Shown one piece after another: positions 12,875 to 15,906 of a DNA stretch of 64,000 nucleotides (its first letter is position 1; each line of letters begins with the position of its first letter). The position numbers were made by a program, and so were the translations under genes. Where the stretch lies: NCBI GenBank assembly GCA_913061515.1, contig CAJXSF010000007.1, forward strand, positions 1-64,000, given 5' to 3'. The notes under the pieces were generated by a model, which was not told the DNA's origin, did no database searches, and worked only from the letters and a program-made list of their open reading frames with translations. Source of the DNA: an uncultured Gammaproteobacteria bacterium. Lineage in GTDB: Bacteria; Pseudomonadota; Gammaproteobacteria; Pseudomonadales; Pseudohongiellaceae.

Positions 12875-13636
12875 ATGTCTACAAGCCGTGATGAAATTCT
12901 AAGTGCATTAAAAACGCTATTACGCCCCGAACAATTCCGCGATTACTGCCCAAATGGCCTGCAAGTTGAGGGTAAAGAGGAGGTAAAGCGTGTCATCACT
13001 GGGGTGACGGCGTGCCAGGCCTTAATTGATAGGGCGATTGAGGAGAAAGCAGACTTGCTCTTGGTGCATCATGGCTATTTTTGGAAAGGCGAGAATGAGT
13101 GCATAACGGGGATCAAGAGAAAGCGTGTAGAAGCTTTGTTGGCCAACGATATTTCCTTATTAGCCTATCATTTGCCGCTCGATGTGCACCCAGAGTTCGG
13201 CAATAACGCCGCGCTTGGAAAGCTATTGGGTTTCACTGTGACTGGTGATCTGGGCAAACAAAACAATAATAGCATCGGCTTGACGGGGGAGTTGGAGCAA
13301 GCGCTCTCGGGTGCGCAATTGAGCGAGTTGTTAGCTCAGCGCCTGGGCAGAGTGCCGCTGCATATCGAAGGAAGTTCCAAGCCTATAAAGACGGTGGCTT
13401 GGTGTACGGGGGCCGCGCAGAATTTTATAGAGCTGGCACAGCAAGCAGGTGTCGATGCCTACATTACAGGAGAAGCTTCAGAGCAAACTGTGCATTTTGC
13501 GCGTGAAACGGGAATGCATTTTTTCGCAGCAGGGCATCATGCCACTGAACGTTACGGCGTGCAGGCGGTAGCAGAATATTTGGCGACTAAGTTGGATTTT
13601 GAGCATCAGTTTATTGATATTGATAATCCTGTCTAG
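12875..13636 (+). CDS. NIF3/YbgI-family dinuclear metal-binding protein
   Basis: Predicted 253 residues, matching E. coli YbgI (247). Family histidines and acids for two metal ions are present: LLVHHGYFW near residue 70, AYHLPLDVHPEFGNN near residue 105, and GHHATERYGV near the C-terminus. The biochemical role of the family is uncertain; annotations as GTP cyclohydrolase type 2 homologue or Nif3-like protein are by similarity. It is a single gene between the divergent algW and the convergent cysNC. One of the two foldback elements starts 22 bases after its stop codon. Confidence 0.9.
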   Translation: MSTSRDEILSALKTLLRPEQFRDYCPNGLQVEGKEEVKRVITGVTACQALIDRAIEEKADLLLVHHGYFWKGENECITGIKRKRVEALLANDISLLAYHLPLDVHPEFGNNAALGKLLGFTVTGDLGKQNNNSIGLTGELEQALSGAQLSELLAQRLGRVPLHIEGSSKPIKTVAWCTGAAQNFIELAQQAGVDAYITGEASEQTVHFARETGMHFFAAGHHATERYGVQAVAEYLATKLDFEHQFIDIDNPV

Positions 13637-13658
13637 CTTTGTTTGTGGCTTCGATTTC

Positions 13659-13770
13659 GTGCTGTCGCTGGCTTCTTGGGGTGAGAAGACGCCGTGCATA
13701 CGTCCATGTAGGCTCTACGGCGGCATCCATGCCGCCGAAGCTTCTCACCCCAAGAAGCCAACGACAGCAC
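13659..13770 (-). repeat. Foldback element copy 1: 30-bp arms around a conserved 52-nt core
   Basis: Left arm 13659-13688 (begins GTGCTGTCG, ends GTGAGAAG) is complementary to right arm 13741-13770 at 29 of 30 positions. The 52-nt core (13689-13740) contains a perfect 9-bp hairpin, CGGCGGCATCCATGCCGCCG at 13718-13737, and a small GTAG/CTAC hairpin beside it. Read on the minus strand, the core matches the core of copy 2 at 49 of 52 positions. The arms of the two copies do not match each other. The strand given is the one on which the core begins CTTCGGCGG. An AAGCTT sequence marks the arm-core junction. Confidence 0.93.
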
Positions 13771-13873
13771 TGTATTGGTGGGCTTTTCGAGAGGTAAGGA
13801 TTATTGGAAACCGGCAATAGTTGTAAGCGCTAACGTTGTATATTCAGCGATCTCTGCGGTTGGCAGTAATAGA

Positions 13874-13985
13874 GTGTTGGTGCGCCAGTTTACGGGCAGG
13901 AAGCTTCGGCGGCATGGATGCCGCCGTAGAGCCTACACGGATGTATTCACGGCGTCTTCCAGCTCGTAAACTGGCGCACCGACAC
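13874..13985 (+). repeat. Foldback element copy 2: 30-bp arms around a conserved 52-nt core
   Basis: Left arm 13874-13903 (begins GTGTTGGTGC, ends GCAGGAAG) is complementary to right arm 13956-13985 at 27 of 30 positions; two of the three mismatches are G-T pairs on the plus strand. The core 13904-13955 matches copy 1 in inverted orientation, with differences only at 13938, 13942 and 13947. The arm sequence is unrelated to that of copy 1 except for GTG at the outer and GAAG at the inner end. It ends 13 bases from the cysNC stop codon. Confidence 0.92.
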
Positions 13986-13998
13986 GGGATCAACGCAC

Positions 13999-15906
13999 TT
14001 ATATAATTTTACGAGACTTCATCAAACGAATAACCTCAGAGAGACACTTTTCGATCGACAAGGCTTCTGTGTCTAACACAAGGTCAGCATTCTCCGGTTC
14101 GTCATAGGGGAATGACACGCCAGGCAAATCTGCTGAGCCAGAGAGCTCTGCGGCCGCATAGAGACCGCTAGGGTCGCGGCGTCGGCACGCTTCCAAGGAT
14201 GGGTTCAGATACACCATTAAGCAATGTTCTTTGCCGATCACAGCACGTGCATGGTCGCGGGAGTCTTTGTTTGGCGCGACAAACGAGGCGCAACAAATTA
14301 AACCTGACTCGTTGAGCAACTTCGCCACATTTGCGCTACGGCGTAAATTCTCCGCGCGGCCTTCTTGATCGTGAGGCAGATCTTTACTGATTCCCAAACG
14401 CATTGTCTTGCCATCGAGCACGGTACTGATTCGACCCATGTCGAATAGACGGCGTTCTAAGCCATGCGCAAGGGTTGTTTTGCCCGAGCCAGATAAACCA
14501 ATAAACATCACAGTCACTGGGTCCTGACCATAGCGCGCCGCACGTTCGTCTTTAGTGACATGCGCTTTTACATCGCTACTTTCGCTGCGCACTGTCGAGC
14601 TTCCCGCATCGACATTAACCATACCTGCGGCGATTGTCACATTGCTCATTCTGTCGATGACTATGAAGGCGCCAGTAGCACGGTTCGTTGTATAACTATC
14701 AACACAAACTACTTGGTCGATGCTGATCTCACATTCACCAATTTCATTCAATTCAAGGGTAGGTGCTGGTGAGGTCTCTAATGTGTTGACGTCTGTACGG
14801 TGTCGCAATGTCGTGACTTTGCCGCTGACAGTTTTGGTGCCGAACTTAAAATCATATAGCTTGCCAGGGAGCATAGCGTCTTCTGTCATCCACACTAAGG
14901 TGGCGGCAAAATTATCAGTGACAACTGGGTAGTTGTCTGCGTGCACAATCATATCGCCACGACTGATGTCGATCTCGTCTTCCATTGTTAATGTCACAGC
15001 CATCTCTGTATGAGCTAGCTCTAACTCTTCGTCATAAGTGACAATGGATTTAATGCGGCTGCGTTTTTGTGAAGGCAGAACAACGACCTCATCTCCTTTG
15101 CGCACGGTGCCTGAGGCGAGAGTGCCGCAGAACCCACGGAAATTAAGATTGGGGCGATTCACATACTGAACAGGAAAGCGCAAGTCTTGCATATTGCGGT
15201 TCTTAGCAATCTCTACGGTTTCGAACAAAGACATCAGCGTTTGGCCTTTGTACCAAGGCATGCTTTCGCTAGGGTTGACGACGTTGTCACCGTTAAGCGC
15301 CGACATTGGAATGAAATGGAACTCGGCATCGGCTAGGCGTTCACTGAAACGAATATAGTCCGCCTTGATGTCCTCGTACACTTTTTCATCGAAGTCGACT
15401 AAGTCCATTTTATTAATGGCCACGACAATATGTTTGATACCTAGCAAAGAGGTGATGAAGCTGTGGCGGCGAGTTTGAACTTGCACGCCATGTCGTGCGT
15501 CGATCAGGATCACTGCGAGATCGCAAGTCGAAGCGCCAGTGGCCATATTGCGAGTGTATTGTTCGTGGCCTGGCGTGTCCGCGATAATAAACTTGCGTCG
15601 CGCTGTTGAAAAATATCGGTAAGCCACGTCGATGGTGATGCCTTGTTCGCGCTCGGCTTGTAGACCGTCCACAAGAAGTGCAAGGTCGACTGCGCCGCCT
15701 GTGGTTCCAGATTTCACACTATCGGCTTTAATGGCACTGAGTTGATCTTCGTAGATCATTTTGGAGTCATGGAGCAGACGCCCAATCAGTGTGCTTTTGC
15801 CATCGTCTACGCTGCCGCAAGTAAGAAGACGCAAAAGTTCTTTGCGCTCATGTTGCGCCAAGTAGGCGTTGATGTCGGTGCTAATGAGTTCTGATTGATG
15901 TGACAT
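13999..15906 (-). CDS. cysNC: CysNC, sulfate adenylyltransferase large subunit fused to APS kinase
   Basis: Predicted 635 residues. The N-terminal two thirds is the EF-Tu-like GTPase CysN (P-loop GSVDDGKST, switch motif [11 protein letters not shown], base-specificity motif NKMDLVD), which couples GTP hydrolysis to APS formation by CysD. The C-terminal third is APS kinase CysC, with P-loop GLSGSGKTT (Lys near 476), [14 protein letters not shown] and [12 protein letters not shown], which makes PAPS. CysNC fusions are common in Pseudomonas and relatives. It follows cysD after 61 bases on the same strand. I see no frameshift across the junction. Confidence 0.96.

Follow-up and report, generated by a model that had tools for sequence, protein, structure and literature searches.

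What kind of repeat keeps its middle constant while its complementary arms are unrelated from one copy to the next? This question is raised by two foldbacks, elements A and B, in the window (the whole stretch of DNA analyzed, 64,000 nucleotides). They lie between a nif3-like ORF (12875-13636, plus strand) and a cysN/cysC-like ORF (13999-15906, minus strand), both presumed identities taken from the translations. Both elements follow the design reported in the first-pass annotation, i.e., a 30-bp arm, a 52-nt core and a second 30-bp arm. The arms of A are complementary at 29/30 positions (97%) and those of B at 27/30, and the core of A (13689-13740) has 3 differences from the reverse complement of the B core (13904-13955), for a match at 49/52 positions. 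For these two copies, it is also correct that the outer GTG and the inner GAAG are the sole identity between the arms of A and those of B. The coordinates of all parts are collected in Table 1.

Table 1. Parts of the two foldback elements and of the region between them
Feature	Position	Strand	Basis or description
A outer arm 1 (30 nt)	13659..13688		inverted repeat I2
A hairpin 1	13691..13713	-	GCC-UAC-AUGGAC-GUA-(UGCAC)-GGC; ANGGAN loop 13702-13707; sequence and alignment
A hairpin 2	13718..13737	-	CGGCGGC-AUGGAU-GCCGCCG; loop 13725-13730; sequence and alignment
A outer arm 2	13741..13770		inverted repeat I2
A modelled strand (GGA strand = minus)	13663..13766	-	model R1, 106 bits, E 6e-24
Spacer of divergently oriented pair	13771..13873		
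B outer arm 1	13874..13903		inverted repeat I3, 90%
B hairpin 2	13907..13926	+	loop AUGGAU 13914-13919; sequence and alignment
B hairpin 1	13931..13953	+	GCC-UAC-ACGGAU-GUA-(UUCAC)-GGC; loop 13937-13942; sequence, pattern and alignment
B outer arm 2	13956..13985		inverted repeat I3
B modelled strand (GGA strand = plus)	13878..13981	+	model R1, 102.7 bits, E 4e-23

Folding z-scores for the four strands ranged from -9.2 to -12.5, and 0/200 shuffles were as stable. A covariance model, R1, was trained on 28 sequences that include two orthologues from genome G001 (locus L045) and none of the window copies. It recovered both elements from the 64-kb window (Table 1) and no other match up to E 10. The folding shuffles and the model E-values thus exclude a chance origin of A and B. 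On one strand of each element, hereafter the GGA strand, a possible fold zips the arms into a long stem bearing two short hairpins whose loops are of the GGA type. The minimum-free-energy fold of this strand contains hairpin 2 and lacks the 3-bp hairpin 1. Three of the four arm mismatches in the window are G.U on the GGA strand, and none is G.U on the other strand. Four sigma-70-like promoter matches, one of them on the minus strand within the A-B spacer, occur between 13500 and 14150 against 0.6 expected, which is not evidence of function. No terminator-like site was found in the same interval (0.8 expected by chance).

Copies of the element in other genomes

A search for the core in 38 genomes, the source genome included, gave matches in 18. 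Scanning the genus with R1, with at most 150 candidates scored per genome, returned copies in 14/14 genomes, at 19 to 57 each. Across the phylum, the exact hairpin-1-region pattern was present in 16 of 398 genomes (the source genome included), all from one class, and a reversed control pattern gave zero matches in every row over the same genome set. Sources among the matches listed were Methylotuvimicrobium buryatense, Stenotrophomonas maltophilia, Arenimonas, Lysobacter, Ectothiorhodospira, Pseudomonas, and Yersinia pekkanenii. The plasmid and phage records searched for the element gave no match; one viral contig matched, and it carries a Yersinia-type copy. In a more distant genome, three direct-tandem copies with short arms are spaced about 205 bp apart (L059, 546-1057). 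In several copies (L051, L056, L062, L066, L168, L176, and others), the hairpin-2 loop encloses a second, shorter unit made of a GCCANGGATGGC hairpin plus another hairpin tipped by GCAGGAGC; this unit also occurs elsewhere, with 29 distinct occurrences by pattern in the fetched loci.

The arms pair within copies and change by matched substitutions

The first-pass annotation had proposed searching for the core and comparing the flanks, and this comparison bore out its description: the middle is constant, and the arms are complementary within a copy and not between copies. Within-copy arm complementarity exceeded the 99th percentile of shuffles in 37/47 genus copies, 25/29 class-level copies, and 112/160 named-genome copies, and between-copy complementarity passed the same threshold in 2.8%, 3.9%, and 17% of cases, respectively. 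The rule has exceptions, since 10 of the 47 genus copies are cores whose arms fall below the shuffle threshold. Those listed are interrupted, rearranged, or short- or imperfect-armed, and at least one (L074, plus strand) is unexplained. Copies with the same arm sequences, which the annotation would have read as an ordinary repeat, were found in methanotrophs and not in the element's own genus.

A total of 28 of 60 non-redundant copies were aligned without gaps (alignment A1, from which model R1 was built), chosen for the commonest spacing and for at least 18/26 arm pairs, a level attained by 160 of 237 copies. Pairing holds in 91.8% of the cells of A1, and its covariation score of 0.864 compares with 0.202 in shuffles and 0.13-0.17 when partners are slid by one to three columns. 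Changes on both sides occur in 26/26 arm pairs of these 28 copies, which were preselected for arm pairing. The hairpin pairs were not used in that choice: hairpin 2 has both-side changes in 8/10 pairs, and the six pairs of hairpin 1 hold in 28/28 copies, with both-side changes in 2/6. Among 237 copies, the hairpin-1 triplet pair is UAC/GUA in 181, CCC/GGG in 45, and UCC/GGA in 6. The loops and the hairpin-1 skeleton with its 5-nt bulge are conserved class-wide; the arms and the hairpin-2 stem vary by matched changes.

Arm turnover was also followed in place, in 25 hand-picked pairs of copies occupying the same site in two genomes; not all are independent (chains of G009, G011, and G013), and one (L350/L352) includes an insert-interrupted copy with 14/30 positions paired. 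In total, 489/650 arm pairs were unchanged and 161 had changed, of which 96 were double Watson-Crick changes, 17 one-sided changes between Watson-Crick and G.U, 25 one-sided losses or gains of pairing, and 23 other mixtures. The window copies show two (B) and eight (A) double Watson-Crick changes relative to their G001 counterparts. Several same-site pairs differ at about half of the arm positions without one-sided intermediates, for instance, L293/L375 with 12 double Watson-Crick changes and 0 one-sided, and such wholesale differences are not predicted by stepwise compensation. At L329/L340, both members of the element pair in G011 carry near-identical arms, and in G013 the arms differ. Given this near-identity and the replacement of arms without intermediates, selection is probably supplemented by template switching or by copying from one element to another.

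One strand is under constraint

If the cause of arm pairing acted equally on both strands, mispairs should be distributed symmetrically between them. They are not: in 57 non-redundant copies collected without the model, G.U occurs 79 times on the GGA strand and 13 times on the other, with ratios of 36:4, 21:3, and 22:6 in the three model-free groups, which indicates that one strand is under constraint. The bias persists when 60 copies are read ungapped (92:26) and both in pattern anchors (66:23) and in non-anchors (6:1); the ratio expected from composition is 0.122 to 0.103. Among the matches listed, model-fetched copies gave 56:2, in a set where both the model and the choice of top hits favor G.U. 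The simplest reading is that the kept strand is probably RNA, and single-stranded DNA would likewise prefer G.T over A.C. Of the three origins that the first-pass annotation had offered for the design, the one in which arm pairing is selected while arm sequence drifts best fits the strand bias, the covariation, and the same-site changes.

The loops have the form of CsrA/RsmA sites

The loop of hairpin 2, which was never part of a fetch pattern, contains GGA in 59/60 non-redundant copies. Hairpin 1 presents a C-G-closed ANGGAN loop, with positions 2 and 6 varying, in 51/51 model-fetched copies among the matches listed, a set biased by the model itself, which contains pairing, G.U, and loops of this form. 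The same loop was found in 10 of 11 copies that lie in pattern-fetched loci and do not themselves match the pattern; the eleventh reads AUGGGC. For the pattern anchors, of which 204/256 were kept for loop reading, hairpin-1 counts are partly true by construction because the fetch patterns contain that loop; 155/204 hairpin-2 loops were read as GGA, and many of the others are a misplaced hairpin. The element thus carries the paired, C-G-closed ANGGAN hexaloop predicted for RNA bound by CsrA/RsmA. The SELEX site RUACARGGAUGU and the ANGGAN hexaloop of RsmE represent the reported CsrA/RsmE shape (PMC7652899), and csrA was found in 14/14 element-bearing genomes tested.

We therefore favor, with a probability of roughly 0.6 for the joint claim, the reading that A and B are dispersed, MITE-like repeats of the YPAL/TwoAYGGAY kind whose RNA has a clamp stem and offers two loops for docking of CsrA/RsmA. 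The GGA strand, which is the minus strand in A and the plus strand in B, would act as RNA, the long stem would serve as a clamp that fixes the geometry in which both loops are presented, and their ligand would be the dimeric regulator CsrA/RsmA. With a dimeric ligand, a transcribed copy would provide two sites, for docking or as a decoy. Copies would have spread by some transposition process and then been kept, lost, or fused in place.

Ends, insertion sites, and genomic context

A set of 71 copies, chiefly from methanotroph loci, forms a 160-bp unit (TATACC...GGTATA) with shared arms and conservation edges defined within one base; the search word behind this set includes the inner 6 nt of the arm. 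No excess of target duplications over chance was found in 48 methanotroph-type copies, one of which has an 11-nt match. In the genus, outer ends are only weakly conserved: on the 5' side, 17/64 copies have GGCAC in the near flank versus 4 in the far flank, and for GRAGYRC in the 3' flank the counts are 9 versus 1. Two Yersinia-type copies (L130, 5260-5460, and L228, 6160-6360) are flanked by two identical 18-nt terminator-like hairpins, as if a target hairpin had been duplicated.

The nif3-cysNC site offers a comparison of filled and empty sites, as suggested in the first-pass annotation. G000 and G001 carry the pair, one match each was found in G009, G010 (where the contig ends nearby), G011, and G013, and the loci of G002-G008 and G012, some of them incomplete, have no element. 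In the element-free gap of G012 (L273), a hairpin with a 7-bp stem (GTGGCGC-GAGATCA-GCGCCAC) was seen by eye just after the nif3-like stop; target, remnant, and terminator are all possible readings of it. At another site, L325 of G011 was considered as a pair absent from G013 and G009 and was rejected as such, since G013 holds a fused remnant and therefore no empty site. In that remnant (L379, about 1430-1560, G013:C45), as compared with L325 (G011:C477), the left part of one element is joined to the right part of the facing one. The fusion point lies near the palindromic CCATCCATGG, and the remnant suggests that a deletion took place between the tips of a pair. The alignment breakpoints in G009 are the same.

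Among adjacent pairs, 34/43 in the genus and class set, counting orthologues, and 8/19 in the named set repeat the minus-then-plus arrangement of A and B. By longest-ORF calls, 188/256 copies have genes on both sides. No gene-sense bias was detected with these crude calls: of the copies in same-direction contexts, 47 are sense relative to the upstream gene and 56 are antisense, which is odd for a 3'-tail RNA. Convergent contexts number 55 and divergent ones 30.

A survey of Y1 genes at 32 loci (two from the source genome, 30 from other element-bearing genomes), a subset of the Y1 genes detected, revealed no mover. No R1 match up to E 0.1 was found in 31 of them, and the remaining locus, L255, has a weak match (1301-1366, 28.3 bits) about 135 nt from a Y1 match (1501-1791). 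A classification as RAYT-mobilized GTAG REP was rejected for want of a linked RAYT gene, a weak match being present at only 1 of the 32 loci. One of the two Y1 genes of the source genome has a flanking inverted repeat that, compared by eye, is unrelated to the element. At L229 (1390-2210), a RAYT-like Y1 gene has on its flanks an inverted repeat containing AAGGGGTCAGA; in G006 (L274), the nif3-cysNC gap is filled by similar GGGGTCAGG repeats.

Alternative explanations

The constrained strand could instead be a transposition substrate, recognized in single-stranded form by an HUH/RAYT-like or other transposase, as are REP and attC sites, with loops and stem persisting because only foldable copies move. 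The sharp-ended, dispersed 160-bp copies, the presence and absence of the element at one orthologous site, the lack of strand bias relative to genes, and the GTAG that, as in GTAG REPs, stands at the base of hairpin 2 are all consistent with such a substrate. A one-strand DNA fold would show the same wobble preference, and one Y1 gene (L255) does have a weak element match nearby. We nevertheless consider this explanation unlikely, as the other 31 Y1 loci lack such a match, matched arm changes accumulate in copies resident at one site, where mobility is not in use, and the C-G-closed ANGGAN loop is the CsrA/RsmA shape. A still less likely view is that functionless arms stay paired through template-switch (quasipalindrome) correction or through element-to-element copying and that the core alone is selected. 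It would account for the near-total arm replacements and for the G011 pair (L329/L340), yet it predicts equal G.U on both strands, against the 79:13 observed. The strand asymmetry hence argues against it as the sole cause; joint action with selection may occur.

About as improbable, or slightly more so, is stabilization of mRNA 3' ends through the long stem alone, a role that De Gregorio reportedly proposed for YPAL in 2006. The very stable stems and the excess of convergent over divergent contexts would suit a stabilizer, but it leaves the fixed loops unexplained, and the absence of sense bias speaks against it. An influence of YPAL on RNA stability has been noted (PMC2229807). The two other origins offered in the first-pass annotation, insertion of the core into pre-existing hairpins and an inverted copying of about 30 flanking bases on insertion, now seem very improbable. 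They would explain why arms within one genus are mostly unrelated, and the short hairpin at the element-free G012 site and the duplicated terminator-like hairpins around the Yersinia copies fall on their side. However, the arms belong to the element in the 71 sharply bounded methanotroph-type copies, which contradicts both for that subfamily. Arms at orthologous sites change in matched fashion, and in Yersinia the two hairpin copies are external to the arms.

Relation to known families

The first-pass annotation knew of no named family with this rule, a statement that has to be withdrawn. As judged from core and fold, the element is homologous to the Yersinia repeat YPAL (of which Rfam Ysr224 represents the other strand) and resembles Rfam TwoAYGGAY. 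R1, which has no Yersinia among its named source sequences, matched the Yersinia-type copies at E 1.2e-13 (L228) and E 1.7e-13 (L130), so that the YPAL core and fold are shared, and Ysr224 scored above its gathering threshold in two Yersinia-type copies. YPAL is described as carrying inverted repeats internally, duplicating 3-26 bp of target sequence, and using targets located at dyad symmetry (PMC2229807); a printed 168-nt RU-2/YPAL repeat holds the same core (PMC2759123), and Yersinia genomes contain 2 to 144 copies each (PMC2847712). The likeness thus covers the core, both GGA hairpins, internal inverted repeats, high intergenic copy number, and a MITE-like character. In contrast, the window arms do not resemble the YPAL arms or the termini of its 168-bp consensus. 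YPAL, at about 168 bp, duplicates its target, whereas no ends or duplications are defined for the window copies. Since their arms are unlike those of Yersinia, A and B are relatives of YPAL and not members.

The Ysr224 model (RF02770) contains the same core but describes the opposite strand and only part of the element; the window copies score 37.2 (B, minus) and 27.7 bits, short of the gathering threshold of 70. Ysr224 is among the most prevalent annotated sRNAs according to a review (PMC9029176). With TwoAYGGAY (RF01731), A scores 38.2 bits (13652-13777, minus) and B 33 (plus), below the gathering threshold of 43, which a match exceeded in 1/11 other element-bearing genomes. Nine TwoAYGGAY matches compared by eye fall on element positions, on the strand opposite to the searched hairpin-1 pattern. 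Like TwoAYGGAY, both window copies have two terminal AYGGAY loops within an external stem (AUGGAC/AUGGAU in A, ACGGAU/AUGGAU in B), this stem is poorly conserved, and the strand is the GGA strand. TwoAYGGAY was described from human gut, Gammaproteobacteria, and Clostridiales (Weinberg 2010, PMC2864571), and CsrA binding was proposed for it in 2014 (PMC4333381). The difference is that the available parts of the RF01731 sources contain no description as a dispersed repeat. GTAG REPs also place GTAG beside a small GC-rich hairpin and form oppositely oriented pairs, but they measure 20-40 bp (PMC3733652), and the present element has long variable arms. Unlike in GTAG REPs, its GTAG alternates with GGGG and GGAG jointly with an upstream partner.

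The element is therefore an unrecognized branch of the known YPAL/TwoAYGGAY kind. In the literature searched, no description of it was found beyond YPAL/RU-2, Ysr224, and TwoAYGGAY, and among the matches listed, the TwoAYGGAY and YPAL literatures do not overlap. The link between YPAL, Ysr224, and TwoAYGGAY seems new in this literature, as do the evidence on strand, a loop rule that holds for tens of copies in each genome, and arms that turn over in place by matched changes. It is conceivable, at somewhat less than even odds, that the three represent, as seen on different strands, one gammaproteobacterial mobile family with tens of copies per genome that spreads two-site pads for the global regulator CsrA/RsmA and whose individual copies are kept folded by their hosts through continual matched replacement of the stems. 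The analysis brings together three items that had been catalogued separately and indicates the functional strand from sequence alone; if the reading is right, mobile repeats would add sites to a global regulon. The CsrA proposal for TwoAYGGAY can now be tested on a large number of natural copies whose stems are unrelated, and the element offers a natural case of stem-sequence turnover in place with pairing maintained. Decoys of the CsrB/RsmZ type are encoded by sRNA genes present in few copies, each with many sites. They share paired GGA hairpins with it (PMC4333381), but the element described here has two sites per copy, tens of copies, and a long stem.
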